From contig NZ_SBHM01000007.1 in assembly GCF_004028095.1 (NCBI RefSeq), positions 2,852,001 to 2,916,000 of the forward strand: DNA of 64,000 nucleotides. The letters are read 5' to 3'. Each line of letters starts with the position of its first letter. Position 1 is the first letter of the stretch. Source of the stretch: Paenarthrobacter ureafaciens (GTDB lineage: Bacteria > Actinomycetota > Actinomycetes > Actinomycetales > Micrococcaceae). The translations under genes were made by a program, and so were the position numbers. A model generated the notes under the pieces. It was given only the letters and a program-made list of their open reading frames with translations. It did not search any database and had not been told where the DNA came from. Shown here piece by piece: positions 24,153 to 57,089 of this stretch.

Positions 24153-24240
24153 GAAGTGATCGTCTCACGGCCGACGGCGGCCTGAATTATCGAAAGCTCC
24201 CCGGACGTGCCATGACGCCTCCCCACGCCGAGACCTTGTT

Positions 24241-24258
24241 TTCGAACATATGTTCGAA
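24241..24258. promoter_or_regulatory. LexA (SOS) box, perfect palindrome
   Basis: TTCGAACATATGTTCGAA is a perfect 18-bp palindrome and matches the actinobacterial/Gram-positive LexA operator core GAAC-N4-GTTC exactly. It is immediately followed by the -10 TAATAT (24259-24264), so LexA would sit on the promoter of the gene at 24271. Confidence 0.9.
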
Positions 24259-24264
24259 TAATAT
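24259..24264 (+). promoter_or_regulatory. -10 element of the SOS-controlled small gene
   Basis: TAATAT begins at the base after the LexA palindrome and ends 6 nt before ATG 24271, giving a leaderless, LexA-occluded promoter. Confidence 0.65.
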
Positions 24265-24270
24265 GGCGGC

Positions 24271-24615
24271 ATGAACGACGCTTCCCGATCAGCAGACGGC
24301 ATGCGCGGCCCCATGAAGGCCATGAGTCCAGGAGTGGTGGACTTCCTGTTCAGGCAACTCGTGGCAGGCGAACCGCCCGAGGATGTGCAGTGGTGCCACG
24401 AGGGTGTGGTGCTCGGTGAACAGGCTCCCGGCGCCGAACTCGCGCGCAGGCTGACCGAGACGGACCTCGACGCCCTGACGCCCTTGGAGCTGTTCGAATA
24501 TGTGCGGGCCACCCAGCGGCTGGTGACCTGGGCTGAGCACCTCAAGGAGTTGGCCGTATCGCGCTACTGCTCGGAGGAGGCCGCGGGAACCCCCGCGAGT
24601 CCCAACGTCCGGTGA
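24271..24615 (+). CDS. Small SOS-controlled protein resembling a DUF222 N-terminal segment
   Basis: 114-aa protein, not confidently in a named family. The helical stretch LDALTPLELFEYVRATQRLV with WAEHLKELAVSRY resembles the start of DUF222/HNH-endonuclease (13E12-type) proteins, but no DUF222 core or HNH motif follows; the protein simply ends. A perfect LexA box and a leaderless -10 precede it. From memory, several mycobacterial 13E12-family genes belong to the DNA-damage regulon, which fits. It could be a truncated remnant or a free-standing module. Its stop is 62 bp before dapA, which has its own promoter. Confidence 0.7.
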   Translation: MNDASRSADGMRGPMKAMSPGVVDFLFRQLVAGEPPEDVQWCHEGVVLGEQAPGAELARRLTETDLDALTPLELFEYVRATQRLVTWAEHLKELAVSRYCSEEAAGTPASPNVR

Positions 24616-24676: not shown

Positions 24677-25588
24677 ATGTCTGACTCCCGCGCGCGCATT
24701 CCCGCTCTTGGTACCCTGCTGACCGCCATGGTCACCCCGTTCACCGAGGATGGCAAGGTCGACTACGACCAAGCCGCAGCGCTGGCAGAAAAGCTCGTCC
24801 AGGACGGTTGCGACGGCCTCGTGGTCACCGGCACCACGGGGGAGACCTCAACCCTCACTGATGAGGAAAACCTCGGCATGTTCCGTGCCGTCAAGGAAGC
24901 CGTTGGCGGCAAGGCCGCCATCATCGCCGGAACCGGCACCAACGACACCGCACACTCGGTGCATTTGTCGCAGCGTGCCGCCCAGCTGGGTGTTGATGGT
25001 CTTCTGATCGTCACTCCCTACTACAACAAGCCCAGCCAGGCCGGCGTGCGGGCGCATTTCGAGACGATCGCTTCTTCCACGGACCTGCCCGTCATGCTGT
25101 ATGACATTCCGGGCCGATCCTCAATTGCCATCGCACCCGAGACCATGATCGCGCTGGCTCAGCACCAGAACATCGTTGCCGTGAAGGACGCCAAGGCCGA
25201 TTTCGCCGCCGCCACGCGGGTCATGGCTGAAACGGACCTCGTCTTCTATTCGGGTGATGACGGCCTGACCCTCCAGTGGATGGCGATGGGTGCTGCCGGC
25301 CTTGTGGGCGTCACCACGCATGTGGCCACCCGGCGCTTCCGTGAGCTCATTGATGCCATGAACGCGAACGACCTCGCGACAGCGAGGACCATTAACTTTG
25401 AATTGGAGCCCGTGGTGCGCGCAACCATGACCCGGGTCCAAGGCGCAGTAGCCGCCAAGCAGATTCTCAAGTGGCAGGGAGTCCTGCCCAACTCGGTTGT
25501 CCGTTTGCCCCTCGTGGAGCCGGACCAGGCCGAGATCGACACCATCCGCGGGGACTTGGCTGAGGCCGGAATGGACTTCAACGTCTAG
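24677..25588 (+). CDS. dapA: 4-hydroxy-tetrahydrodipicolinate synthase
   Basis: Condenses pyruvate with aspartate semialdehyde in lysine/DAP synthesis (303 aa, TIM barrel). Substrate-binding GTTGETSTLTDEE, the active-site Tyr in YYNKPSQAGVRAHFE, YDIPGRSS and the Schiff-base Lys in VAVKDAKAD are visible. It is followed after 27 bp by the RNase J gene, the dapA-rnj pairing common in actinobacteria. Start supported by the -10 hexamer. Confidence 0.97.
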   Translation: MSDSRARIPALGTLLTAMVTPFTEDGKVDYDQAAALAEKLVQDGCDGLVVTGTTGETSTLTDEENLGMFRAVKEAVGGKAAIIAGTGTNDTAHSVHLSQRAAQLGVDGLLIVTPYYNKPSQAGVRAHFETIASSTDLPVMLYDIPGRSSIAIAPETMIALAQHQNIVAVKDAKADFAAATRVMAETDLVFYSGDDGLTLQWMAMGAAGLVGVTTHVATRRFRELIDAMNANDLATARTINFELEPVVRATMTRVQGAVAAKQILKWQGVLPNSVVRLPLVEPDQAEIDTIRGDLAEAGMDFNV

Positions 25589-33149: not shown

Positions 33150-34190
33150 ATGGCGGCAACCCCGGATCGTGAGAAGGCGCTCGAGGCAGCGCTTGCCCAG
33201 ATCGACAAGCAGTTCGGCAAAGGCTCCATCATGCGCCTGGGTGATGACACCCGCGCTCCGATCGAGGTCATTCCCACCGGTTCCATTGCCTTGGACGTGG
33301 CCCTTGGCATCGGGGGACTCCCGCGCGGCAGGGTCGTGGAAATCTATGGACCGGAATCTTCCGGTAAGACCACCGTCGCCCTGCATGCTGTAGCCAATGC
33401 ACAGCGTAACGGCGGCATCGCGGCCTTCATTGACGCCGAACACGCCCTGGATCCCGATTACGCCGCGAAGCTTGGCGTAGACACGGACGCCCTGCTGGTT
33501 TCACAGCCGGACACCGGTGAACAGGCTCTGGAAATCATGGACATGCTGGTGGGCTCCGGCTCGCTGGACATCATCGTCATTGACTCCGTGGCTGCGCTGG
33601 TTCCCCGCGCTGAAATCGAGGGCGAGATGGGCGATTCCCACGTTGGCCTCCAGGCGCGCCTCATGAGCCAGGCCCTTCGAAAGATCACCGGTCGCTTGAG
33701 CCAGACCAAGACCACCGCGATCTTCATCAACCAGCTGCGTGAGAAGATCGGCGTCTTCTTCGGATCGCCGGAAACCACCACCGGTGGTAAGGCACTGAAG
33801 TTCTATGCCTCAGTGCGTATTGACGTCCGCCGCATCCAGACGCTGAAGGAAGGCGCCGATTCCGTCGGTAACCGGACCAAGGCAAAGATCGTCAAGAACA
33901 AGATGGCTCCGCCCTTTAAAATTGCCGAGTTCGACATCATCTACGGCCAGGGGATCTCGCGCGAAGGCGGCATCATCGACATGGGCGTGGAACACGGCAT
34001 CATCAAGAAGTCGGGATCCTGGTTCACCTACGACGGCGATCAGCTCGGTCAGGGCATGGAGAACTCACGCCGCTTCCTGCGGGACAACCCGGAGCTTGCC
34101 CAGGAGTTGGAACGCCTCATCAAGGAAAAGCTTGGCGTAGGCGTGAAGCCCGAAGAGGAATCGCCCAAGCTGAAGGCCGTTGACGGTTAG
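33150..34190 (+). CDS. recA: Recombinase RecA
   Basis: DNA strand-exchange ATPase and SOS coprotease (346 aa). [16 protein letters not shown], Walker [10 protein letters not shown] (~67), Walker [13 protein letters not shown], the [19 protein letters not shown] region and the ending typical of actinobacteria are complete. There is no intein, unlike in M. tuberculosis. The promoter carries a LexA box about 190 bp upstream. recX overlaps the 3' end. Confidence 0.99.
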
Positions 34191-40942: not shown

Positions 40943-42992
40943 GCAGGTGGCGGCGGAGACCGCTGAAACGGCAGGGGAGAGGTTTACCCTCGAACTGCTG
41001 GAGAAGGCTGTTGCCGGTTTGGGTGGCCAGAGCCGTCCCGGGCAGCAGGAAATGGCAAAGCATGTGACCCGGGCCATCGAGTCCGGCGAGCATCTGCTGG
41101 TCCAGGCAGGGACGGGCACAGGCAAGTCGCTGGCCTACCTGATCCCGTTGATTGCCCATTCCATGGACAGCAACAAGCCGACCCTGGTTTCCACCGCCAC
41201 TTTGGCCCTCCAGACCCAGATCGTGGGCAGGGATTTGCCCCGCCTGCTGGAGACTATCACTCCCGCCTTGGCGCGCCCGGTCAACGTGGCGCTCGTCAAA
41301 GGCCGGGCGAACTACGTTTGCCTGCAGAAGCTCGAGGGAGGGTTCCCCAGCGAGGAACCCTCCGAGGGCCAGCTTTTTTCGCTCGGAGAGGACACCAGCG
41401 TGCCGCACTTTGCGGCTTCGGTGGGCGGAGCGTCGTCGCAGCTGGGCAAGGAAGTCCTCCGTCTGCGGGAGTGGGCCGGCAAGACGGCCACAGGCGACCG
41501 GGATGAGCTCATGCCCGGCGTTACGGACAGGGCGTGGAGACAGGTTTCGGTCACGTCCATGGAATGCCTGGGGGCGCAGAAGTGTCCGCTCGCCGAGGAG
41601 TGCTTCAGCGAGTTGGCACGGGCCAAGGCGGCGGAGGCGGACGTCGTGGTCACCAATCACGCGATGCTTGCCGTCAGTGCTTTCGAGGGCCTGGCCGTGC
41701 TGCCCGAGTATGACGTCGTGGTGGTCGATGAGGCCCACGAACTGCAGGACCGGGTCACGGGAGCAGTATCCGGGCAGCTGTCGGTGGCCATGGTCCACGC
41801 CGCTGCGTCCAGTGCCCGCAAGCACACAGCCATTACCGTCGACGCCTTGAATGCCGCTGCGGACCGCTTGGATCTGGCGCTGGTGGGGGTTCCCAGCGGC
41901 TTGCAGCCGAACGGCTTGAACGACGAGCTGCTCGACTGCCTCGACCAGCTGCGGGACGCCACGCGCGCCGCGCTGTCCGATTCGAAAACGGACTCCTCCA
42001 ACGCCGTCGACGGCGGACGGCAGCTTGCGCGGTCGCGCCTGATGCTCATCCTGGAACTCTGCGAGAGGCTGCTCACGGCGAAGGAAAACCGGGAAGTGGT
42101 CTGGTTCTCCAGGAACGCCGCTTTCGATCCGCAGCAGGGCTACTCCCAGCCCGATGACTCCGCACCTGCGCTCATCAACGTCGCACCGCTGAGCGTCGCA
42201 GGGCGTCTCCGTGAAGGACTGTTTGCCGATCACACAGTGGTGTTGACGTCCGCTACGCTCGCCATCGGCTCGGCCTTCGAACCGGCCGCCGGCGGATTGG
42301 GGCTGATGGGTGACGGCGCGCCCAGCTGGACAGGGCTGGACGTCGGGTCCCCCTTCGACTACCCCAAGCAGGGTGTCTTGTATGTCGCCCAGCACCTGCC
42401 GAAGCCGGGCAGGGGCACGTCGCCGGAAGCCCTGGACGAACTCGAAGACCTCATTCGGGCATCCGGTGGGGGAGCGCTGTGCCTTTTCTCCTCGCGGCGC
42501 GCGGCGGAAGAAGCGGCTGATGCCATGCGGTCGCGTTTGGATGTGGACATCCTGTGCCAGGGAGAATCCACCATGGCGGCGCTTGTGAAGCAATTCTCCG
42601 ATGAACCGGACACCTGTCTCTTCGGCACCATGTCCCTGTGGCAGGGAGTGGATGTTCCGGGTGGTACCTGCCGCCTGGTTGTCATCGACCGCATCCCCTT
42701 CCCGCGGCCGGACGATCCGCTCATGACCGCACGCTCCCGGGCGGTGGCACAGTCCGGTGGTAACGGATTCATGGCGGTCTCAGCAACGCATGCGGCCATT
42801 AGGTTGGCGCAGGGCGCCGGGCGCCTTATCCGGTCGACAGGGGACAAAGGCGTGGTTGCCGTTCTTGACTCCCGGCTCTCCACGGAAAGGTACGGAGGCT
42901 TCCTGCGTGCCGCACTCCCGCCATTCTGGACGACGACGGACCGCAAGGTAGTGCAGGGAGCTTTGGGGCGGTTGGCGAAGCAGGACCCCTAG
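40935..42992 (+). CDS. dinG: DinG/XPD-type ATP-dependent DNA helicase
   Basis: Superfamily 2 5'-3' helicase (685 aa). Walker [16 protein letters not shown], four cysteines for an Fe-S cluster (NYVCLQKL, then [15 protein letters not shown]), the DEAH box VVVDEAHEL, and motifs V/VI ([26 protein letters not shown]) are intact. These helicases unwind R-loops and forked DNA. The gene overlaps hflX by 8 bp and converges on lexA with 4 bp of overlap. No LexA box lies nearby, so direct SOS control is not evident. Confidence 0.95.
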
Positions 42993-43735
42993 AGGGAGCG
43001 CAGCACCGAAACGACCTTGCCCATGATGGTGGCTTGATCGCCGAGGATGGGTTCGTACTGGGTGTTTTGGGGGAGCAGCCAGGTGTGCCCGTCGCGCTGG
43101 CGGAAGGTCTTGACGGTCGCTTCGTCATCAAGGAGGGCGGCCACGATGTCGCCGTTGACGGCGTCGTTCTGACGGCGGACCACCACCCAGTCGCCGTCGC
43201 AGATCGCGGCATCGATCATCGAGTCACCAGCGACTTTGAGCATGAACAGTTCGCCGTGGCCAACCAATTGCCGGGGGAGCGGGACGACGTCCTCGACGGA
43301 TTGATCGGCGAGGATAGGGCCGCCGGCCGCGATCCGTCCTACCAAGGGCACCATGGCGGTGTCACTGGCAGTTGCCAGCGCGGTGACATCCATGCCGCCG
43401 CTGCTGAGCAGTGTGCCGGGAGCCTCCACCCCGGGAATGCCGGCGCCGCTGTCCAACGTCAGGGGCATGAGGACTTCCATGGCACGCGGTCGCTTGGGAT
43501 CACGGCGGAGGTAACCAAGCTTCTCCAGCTGGGATAGCTGATGGGTAACGCTGGAGAGACTGGCGAGGCCGACGGTATCCCCGATCTCGCGCATGCTGGG
43601 TGGATACCCGTTGTCATTGACCGACCGCTGGATGGTCTCGAGGATTTTCTTCTGCCGGACGGTGAGGCTCTTGGGGGCTTTGGGGGCCTGTTGGCTGCGC
43701 AGGGATGCCCTGCCTCCTGTGGCTTTTGCTGCCAT
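42989..43735 (-). CDS. lexA: LexA repressor
   Basis: SOS repressor/autoprotease (248 aa). The winged-helix DNA-binding domain has [14 protein letters not shown] and [17 protein letters not shown]. The cleavage site is A137-G138 in GRIAAGGP. The catalytic dyad is S172 ([10 protein letters not shown]) and K209 (DEATVKTF). The start chosen, ATG 43735, gives a 20-residue basic lead. The same frame stays open to GTG 43867, next to the SOS box, which would add 44 residues if used. At least two LexA boxes lie upstream, as expected for autoregulation. Confidence 0.97.
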
Positions 43736-43875
43736 GTTCGCCAATGCCCTTCCGTTCCGCCCCGGGCCTGGTCCGTTGCTGCCCGAAGATGCCGGGCCCA
43801 AAAATGTCAGACCCTCCTGATGCACTGAATCTGTGCCTGTTTCTTCACTCAAACGTAGGTCAGGCACGGGCGTTT

Positions 43876-43893
43876 ATCAAACATTTGTTCTAG
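43876..43893. promoter_or_regulatory. LexA (SOS) box proximal to lexA
   Basis: ATCAAACATTTGTTCTAG keeps the AAAC-N4-GTTC core and the 6-nt centre of the other boxes in this window. It lies 141 bp upstream of lexA ATG 43735 (9 bp from the alternative GTG 43867). Confidence 0.8.
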
Positions 43894-43942
43894 CGAGTCT
43901 CGACACCATTCGTTGATAAGTGCTAAAAATGTCATAGCAAGG

Positions 43943-43960
43943 TTCGAATATGTGTTCTAT
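43943..43960. promoter_or_regulatory. LexA (SOS) box proximal to the LysM gene
   Basis: TTCGAATATGTGTTCTAT has the TTCGAA-N6-TTC layout with two departures from consensus. It lies about 120 bp before the LysM gene. A third TTCGAA/TTCGAA pair at 43976-43992 has a 5-nt centre and is probably not a good site. Confidence 0.7.
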
Positions 43961-44075
43961 AAGCCGTTGTCGATGTTCGAAGGATGTTCGAACGCCGGCG
44001 CGGAGTGCACACAGAGAATTGGCAAGCCTGCGCGGTTCCGCCGGCGCAGGCAATCCTTCAGGAGGGCTCAGGCTC

Positions 44076-44432
44076 ATGTCCGCTGTTACGTTCCACGATT
44101 TCCGCTCCATCCCCGCCCCGGCGCGCATCAGGCTGACGCGGCGCGGCAGGATGGTCTTCTTCGGCATTCCCGCAATGCTCCTCGTTGCCGCCCTCCTCAG
44201 CCTGGCGGGCTTCCTCAACTCGCCGGCAAAGGCATCGGACAGCCAGGCGCAGCTTCAGCCTCCTGTCGCAGTGAGCGTGACCGTCCAGCCGGGTCAGTCC
44301 CTCTGGGGAATCGCGGGAGCTGCTGCGCCGGAACGTGACCCCCGCGACGTGATTGCGGAAATCATCGAGCTCAATGATCTCCGCGGAGGCCGTATCCAGC
44401 CCGGCCAGCAGCTGTTCGTCCCTGCCGGCTAG
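44076..44432 (+). CDS. LysM-domain membrane protein, SOS cell-division inhibitor candidate
   Basis: 118-aa protein with one membrane segment (residues 26-47) and an extracytoplasmic LysM domain (VTVQPGQSLWGIAG to GRIQPGQQLFVPAG, 68-117). ATG 44076 follows CAGGAGGG. It is divergent from lexA and shares its SOS-box region. Proteins of this architecture next to lexA include Bacillus YneA and mycobacterial Rv2719c/ChiZ, which block division during DNA damage; corynebacterial DivS holds the same position. The same role is inferred here from context and architecture. Confidence 0.85.
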   Translation: MSAVTFHDFRSIPAPARIRLTRRGRMVFFGIPAMLLVAALLSLAGFLNSPAKASDSQAQLQPPVAVSVTVQPGQSLWGIAGAAAPERDPRDVIAEIIELNDLRGGRIQPGQQLFVPAG

Positions 44433-55971: not shown

Positions 55972-57063
55972 CTAGAACAGCGGCTGTTGGTCCGGGGTGT
56001 GTGCAGCCTGATGCTCGGCATCAGTGCGGCTGGAAGCCGCCGGTTTGGCGTTCCGGTGACTGAATCCGGACGTGCCCTTGAATCCGTACTTCGCCTTGAA
56101 GTAATTGATCCGACCGGACAACCACACCCGGTAGTCTTTCGGGGCGTAAGCGCCTTGACCGTAGAGGCGGCGGTAGCGGCCCACCAGCTCCGGATGGTTG
56201 GCGGCGAGCCATTTCAGATACCACTCGCGGGTGCCTGGCTTGAGGTAGAGGGCGCCGGCTGTGACCCCGGTGGCACCGGCAGCCGCCAGTTCCGAAAAAA
56301 GGGAGTCGAGTGCTTCATCGGAGTCGGTCAGCCATGGAAGGATCGGCATCGCCATGACGCCGCAGCCCAGGCCGGCGTCGCGCAGCCTTGCTATGAGCTT
56401 AAGGCGTGCCCGGGGCGACGGCGTTCCAGGCTCCATCAGTTCGGCGAGGTCCGAGTTGGTCATTGCGAGTGAGATCCCAAGGTCCACCGGAACCTGGGCT
56501 GCTGCGTGCTTGAGGAGGGGAATGTCCCTTGCCAGGAGGGTGCCCTTGGTCAGAATCGAGAACGGCGTGCCGGAGTCGGCCAGGGCACGGATAATTCCCG
56601 GCATCAACGCGTACCGGCCCTCGGCACGCTGGTAGGGGTCGGTGTTGGTCCCCAGCGCAACCTGATGCCGCTGCCATGACGGCTTCGCCAACTCCTTGCG
56701 CAGCACCTCTGCTGCGTTGATCTTCACCACCACTTGGGAATCAAAGTCCCGGCCGGAGTCGAAATCCAGGTAGGTGTGGGTCTTGCGGGCAAAGCAATAA
56801 ACGCAGGCATGGCTGCAGCCACGGTAAGGATTGACGGTCCATTCGAAGGGCATGTTTGAACCGGATGGCACCTTGTTGAGCACTGACTTGGCGGTGACCT
56901 CGTGGAAGGTGACTCCGGAAAACTCGGGTGTTGAGATGGAACGCACCAGCCCGGCCAGTGGCAGCAGGGCATCCGTGACCGGGGCAGGGCCTGGAGTTCC
57001 GCCGTCACTGTTCCCGGACAAGCCGTCACTGGTAGGTGAAAGTGCTTGTGCGTTCCATCTCAT
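55972..57063 (-). CDS. Rv2578c-type radical SAM protein (SplB-like), LexA-box promoter
   Basis: 363-aa radical SAM protein. The cluster motif CxxxCxxC is in NPYRGCSHACVYCFARKTH; GTNTDPYQRAEGRY and GISLAMTNSDLAELMEPGTP follow, a layout shared with spore-photoproduct-lyase-like/Rv2578c proteins. The substrate is unknown; DNA repair is suggested by the family name and by a LexA box 9 bp upstream of the ATG (57063). The last ~30 residues are His/Ala/Ser-rich and variable. From memory the mycobacterial homologue is in the LexA regulon, which agrees. Confidence 0.87.
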   Translation of the reverse strand: MRWNAQALSPTSDGLSGNSDGGTPGPAPVTDALLPLAGLVRSISTPEFSGVTFHEVTAKSVLNKVPSGSNMPFEWTVNPYRGCSHACVYCFARKTHTYLDFDSGRDFDSQVVVKINAAEVLRKELAKPSWQRHQVALGTNTDPYQRAEGRYALMPGIIRALADSGTPFSILTKGTLLARDIPLLKHAAAQVPVDLGISLAMTNSDLAELMEPGTPSPRARLKLIARLRDAGLGCGVMAMPILPWLTDSDEALDSLFSELAAAGATGVTAGALYLKPGTREWYLKWLAANHPELVGRYRRLYGQGAYAPKDYRVWLSGRINYFKAKYGFKGTSGFSHRNAKPAASSRTDAEHQAAHTPDQQPLF

Positions 57064-57071
57064 GGGTTAAA

Positions 57072-57089
57072 TTCGAAGGTATGTTCGAA
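57072..57089. promoter_or_regulatory. LexA (SOS) box upstream of the radical SAM gene
   Basis: TTCGAAGGTATGTTCGAA lies inside an 11-bp-arm inverted repeat (57067-57077 and 57084-57094). Minus-strand TTGACT (57099-57094) is a -35 for the radical SAM gene, so LexA would cover that promoter. The divergent pcp gene starts 50 bp away on the other side. Confidence 0.85.

Follow-up and report, generated by a model that had tools for sequence, protein, structure and literature searches.

A conserved small gene of the Arthrobacter group with a LexA-box promoter at leaderless spacing and a segment related to DUF222-HNH N-termini: a candidate SOS gene

As judged by comparison of sequences, a small gene of Paenarthrobacter ureafaciens that encodes 114 amino acids is real and conserved, has a LexA-box promoter at leaderless spacing, and represents a stand-alone domain variant of an already known kind of protein, the DUF222-HNH (13E12-type, PF02720) proteins. 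It lies within the 64,000-nucleotide stretch of DNA analysed here (the window; Table 1), and those records of the gene that carry a name call it hypothetical or uncharacterized only. With slightly more than even confidence we read it as a LexA-repressed SOS gene whose product, a soluble helical protein, would likely work in trans through a protein partner as an accessory factor or regulator of the damage response.

Table 1. Features of the small gene and its surroundings in the window.
Feature	Position	Strand	Basis
-35-like hexamer TTGTTT	24236..24241	+	sequence; CTTGT columns 96-100% conserved in 55 same-genus loci
LexA box, perfect 18-bp palindrome	24241..24258	.	pattern scan, shuffles, conservation
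-10 element TAATAT	24259..24264	+	sequence; TAnnAT kept in 55 loci
Small gene of predicted SOS type, 114 aa, start ATG	24271..24615	+	ORF list; orthologues; box-ATG spacing
Codons 16-45, conserved block KAMSPGVVDFLFRQLVAGE..EG, lying largely beyond the DUF222 similarity	24316..24405	+	alignment
Codons 40-105, segment homologous to the DUF222-HNH N-terminal helical domain	24388..24585	+	profiles, models
dapA, conserved downstream neighbour	24677..25588	+	PF00701

Read from the sequence, the order upstream of the open reading frame is C-TTGTTT-TCGAACATATGTTCGAA-TAATAT-GGCGGC-ATG: the 17-bp spacer between TTGTTT and TAATAT (24242-24258) is the LexA box itself, and six bases separate TAATAT from the ATG. 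The first-pass annotation had described a perfect 18-bp LexA palindrome abutting this -10 element, and the sequence agrees. The palindrome TTCGAACATATGTTCGAA is present as a single copy in the window (24241-24258), with 0 occurrences in 100 shuffles. The motif TCGAACN4GTTCGA is matched at 24242-24257 with 0 mismatches, and scanning the window for it with up to two mismatches gave 9 sites against 2.7 expected. A promoter scanner, whose hexamers are stricter, did not list this promoter; the case for it is made by conservation across loci. Columns -9 to +21 average 1.71 bits over 55 same-genus loci against 0.14 for columns -60 to -11. The LexA box is found with at most two mismatches in all 55 and likewise in 80/80 named loci, an overlapping set made up of the best 80 of 123 and covering Arthrobacter, Paenarthrobacter, Pseudarthrobacter and one Micrococcaceae bin. 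The ATG lies 29-30 nt past the box start in 47 of the 55; in the remaining eight the script halted at an in-frame ATG at 21, and the next Met, three codons on, is at 30. The same spacing was obtained for 79 of the 80 named loci (in L221 no start was located by the script) and the distance from the -10 element to the ATG is fixed in relatives, so that the leaderless spacing claimed at first pass holds nearly without exception. A LexA box that overlaps the promoter and is conserved among relatives points to membership of the LexA (SOS) regulon, and the transcript would start at or next to the ATG.

The window also holds recA (33150-34190) and lexA (42989-43867), both with upstream LexA-like sites carrying two mismatches. 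Two such sites, with 2 mismatches each, are found at 43877-44432, between lexA and a divergent LysM gene, an arrangement similar to lexA-Rv2719c of mycobacteria and lexA-yneA of Bacillus. A radical SAM gene (55972-57088) has a LexA-like site with 1 mismatch just upstream of its start (57073-57088) and is likely another SOS gene. Elsewhere in the same genome (L058, C7:1511226) a box with 0 mismatches to TCGAAYN4GTTCGA precedes what looks by eye like a UmuD-like/UmuC-like pair.

The protein was matched in 37/37 same-genus genomes of a first draw, its own genome included, and in 196/198 of a larger, overlapping draw, 186 of whose 187 good-quality genomes match. One of the two misses is a genome only 68% complete (G504). 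The other, G428, is 99% complete and has two dapA copies, neither of them preceded by a box within the DNA retrieved. A further genome (G465; 83% complete, 410 contigs) matches at E 1.4e-5 only, and G491 gives two matches since its frame is broken after 68 aa, possibly by a sequencing error. Nearly all genomes have just one copy of the gene. Among 73 aligned proteins 36 positions are invariant, the N- and C-terminal tails vary across orthologues, and the core is under purifying selection, with a median dN/dS of 0.13 and a maximum of 0.31 in the 115 of 1485 pairs that have dS 0.1-1. Kept in nearly every Arthrobacter-group genome examined, the gene probably has a working role in the damage response. 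The first-pass annotation had named a decayed remnant as one possibility but took the tidy promoter as a sign of use. A functionless leftover of a full-length DUF222-HNH gene could plausibly have formed when the remainder of that gene was lost, and the absence from G428 and the broken frame of G491 would fit with it, but the near-universal match, the low dN/dS, the fixed place beside dapA and a promoter kept across loci lead us to reject it as hardly credible; presence, selection and place all agree with a gene in use.

Outside the genus, a diverged version of the small gene is present in nine genomes of genus g28 and one of genus g39. It precedes dapA, its LexA box has no more than two mismatches, and the box-ATG spacing is that of the home genus. 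The g39 protein begins at the equivalent of residue 36, which marks the minimal module. Two other g28 genomes, G064 and G141, show neither protein match nor box and, together with G428 and G491, count against our best explanation. Looking for a box upstream of dapA, we found no counterpart in 33 genomes that represent 27 further genera of the family.

The genomic place is fixed. dapA lies downstream on the same strand in 79/80 named loci (the exception, within the flanking DNA read, being L173), and an acyltransferase-like gene (PF07786 in the window) lies upstream on the other strand in 66/80, again within the flanking DNA read. The gap between small gene and dapA exceeds 800 bases in 42 of 78 measurable loci, a further gene being inserted there; that of L158, the locus with the Paenarthrobacter aurescens TC1 orthologue, is a carbon-nitrogen hydrolase, and many others look alike by eye. 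The motif TAACGTTTTTC stands right before the dapA ATG in 61/80 loci and dapA probably has its own promoter. A scan of this window detected no terminator-like site between the two genes, and some read-through is thus possible. One could accordingly suppose that the LexA-type promoter serves read-through into dapA and that the small open reading frame is incidental, as the shared strand would also allow. We consider this very unlikely given the purifying selection on the protein core, the inserted gene in over half of the measurable loci and the separate dapA motif. dapA makes a cell-wall precursor, and its constant proximity, the small size of the protein and the LexA-type promoter could instead point to an SOS checkpoint protein that targets cell division or the synthesis of the cell wall. 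The same intervening genes and dapA motif weaken this idea. The protein moreover has no membrane segment (best 19-residue mean hydropathy 0.77), such as membrane-type SOS division inhibitors have, and the LysM gene adjoining lexA is a better candidate for the role, all of which makes such a checkpoint function quite improbable.

The small protein carries a net charge of -7 and finds no Pfam family up to E 10, which means no DUF222 core and no HNH nuclease domain at its C-terminus, just as the first-pass annotation had stated; NCBIfam likewise gave no match. With PF02720 itself, 0/17 orthologues match up to E 1, none reaching the gathering score. The resemblance to the opening helices of DUF222-HNH proteins that had also been proposed emerges instead when profiles are compared. 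We searched 396 genomes of the order with a profile of 17 orthologues and read 19 loci outside the home genus and g28: fifteen encode PF02720 proteins, three are chance matches, and the last (L126) has no Pfam family yet by eye shows an HNH-like motif at its end. In the PF02720 proteins the stretch hit by the profile is found where the PF02720 match begins or a little ahead of it. HHalign aligned orthologue residues 40-105 to DUF222-HNH relatives with a probability of 94 (E 1.5e-7), the partner being an alignment of 47 full-length relatives of L114, 46 of which are assigned PF02720 or close kin. A tighter orthologue set gave 88 (E 3.2e-6). As controls, reversed columns gave 0.2 and the best of 30 column shuffles 0.9. 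Conversely, with an N-terminal profile of the full-length relatives the window protein scored E 5.5e-8, every one of the 65 orthologues read came in at E <0.01, and the first reversed control appeared at E 0.45. Since L114 was itself found via the small-protein profile, full independence holds for the order-wide search but not for these profile comparisons. The profile check suggested at first pass came out negative with Pfam PF02720 and positive with the DUF222-HNH N-termini, where the similarity withstands reversed and shuffled controls and is confined to 66 residues. Of full-length proteins picked by PF02720 alone, 2/32 match, and the segment therefore belongs to one branch of the DUF222-HNH proteins. 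Taken together these data indicate that residues 40-105 are homologous to the N-terminal helical segment of that branch. Residues 16-39 have no counterpart in the alignment.

Structure models are in line with this relationship. AlphaFold predicts helices at residues 55-63 and 71-105 of the small protein, with block confidence of 89-96 over residues 51-100 and middling confidence overall (mean pLDDT 74, pTM 0.54); a structure search found no solved fold to support the model. For a full-length relative, P0182, the predicted helices span residues 37-45 and 53-84 (block confidence 91-97 over residues 31-80), so that both models have the same pattern of a short and a long helix. In P0182 the helices are followed by a low-confidence linker (residues 89-100, below 50) and then by the next domain, for which reason the segment looks like a separate domain. 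The small gene is that N-terminal domain joined to a front block of its own. When the P0182 model was compared with the PDB by Foldseek, ParB/Spo0J/Noc chains made up most of the top 14 rows, with E values of 0.087-0.5, none at E <=0.001, and probabilities up to 0.97; a ParB-like DUF222 core is a lead from modelling.

Two full-length DUF222-HNH genes of g26, L089 (box with two mismatches) and L090 (one), have a promoter plan like that of the small gene, with the ATG 29 nt past the box start. The likeness suggests descent of the small gene from a DUF222-HNH gene of this sort, the remainder of which was lost. The first-pass annotation had speculated that the fragment regulates full-length DUF222-HNH proteins or acts as their decoy; the small protein would then pair with the N-terminal domains of the full-length proteins in its own cell and alter their assembly or activity. 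Beyond the homology itself, potential partners do exist, as DUF222 matches occur in 37/37 same-genus genomes (3-18 in each), and two proteins of the same genus match the N-terminal profile to some degree, L140 at E 1.8e-4 and, more weakly, L136 at E 0.038. The three DUF222-HNH proteins of the genome itself, however, do not rise above the top reversed control under either profile (with the N-terminal profile, L057 has 4.8 bits and that control 4.9). Neither was a box with 0-1 mismatch seen between -80 and +500 of the open frame in any of 23 same-genus full-length genes, a range outside which some of their starts may fall; the 23 are these three plus, for each of 20 relatives, its top-scoring protein among the 3-18 in the genome. 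The variable DUF222 copy number, against a small gene that is nearly always single, and the lack of a counterpart for residues 16-39 also speak against pairing, which we regard as unlikely.

We therefore return to the reading of the gene as LexA-repressed and acting in trans. LexA bound to the palindrome between the -35 and -10 elements would keep RNA polymerase out. Upon DNA damage LexA would be cleaved and a leaderless mRNA made, giving a small, soluble, acidic and helical protein that would consist of the free-standing N-terminal domain of one DUF222-HNH branch and its own block KAMSPGVVDFLFRQLVAGE. As it has no detectable nuclease or DNA-binding domain, the protein would most likely work by helix-mediated binding of a protein partner, although it may also bind DNA or be a peptide with another action. 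A bolder possibility, which we put forward tentatively and well short of even confidence, is that of a lineage-specific family of SOS effectors, built from a detached DUF222-HNH N-terminal domain and a new block, that regulates a central damage-response partner throughout the Arthrobacter group; if true, it would reveal the role that the domain has in DUF222-HNH proteins. These proteins are abundant, and their domain is still named as one of unknown function. A natural, near-universal single-copy gene that consists of just their N-terminal helical domain and a new block offers a small soluble handle on what this domain binds, and extends the SOS response predicted for a large genus of soil bacteria by a hypothetical or uncharacterized gene. 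It is striking for a hypothetical protein to have so fixed a promoter and to be present almost universally. Our literature search, outside which most subscription papers lay, found no paper about such a gene by title or abstract start.

Among known systems, SosA, YneA, ChiZ, DivS and DinI are small SOS effectors. The small gene resembles them in size and in its LexA-type promoter and differs in that its product lacks a membrane segment and a matching Pfam family. The box itself is of the mycobacterial type, for which TCGAACN4GTTCGA is given as the SOS consensus (PMC4181829), and LexA of M. tuberculosis is reported to start leaderless (PMC2897130), as is predicted for the small gene. Unlike these, the box of the small gene is exactly the spacer and its ATG spacing is fixed genus-wide. 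Compared with DUF222-HNH proteins of about 400-700 aa, the small protein is far shorter and has neither a PF02720 match nor an HNH domain, and its gene has a conserved front block, a single copy and a fixed place of its own. The likeness is that one branch has an N-terminal helical domain homologous to residues 40-105 and that the two g26 genes share the promoter plan of the small gene. In addition, 13E12 genes belong to the LexA regulon of M. tuberculosis according to PMC4181829 and PMC5005354, and PMC8151990 reports a RecA-dependent response to mitomycin C for five putative HNH endonucleases of that species.
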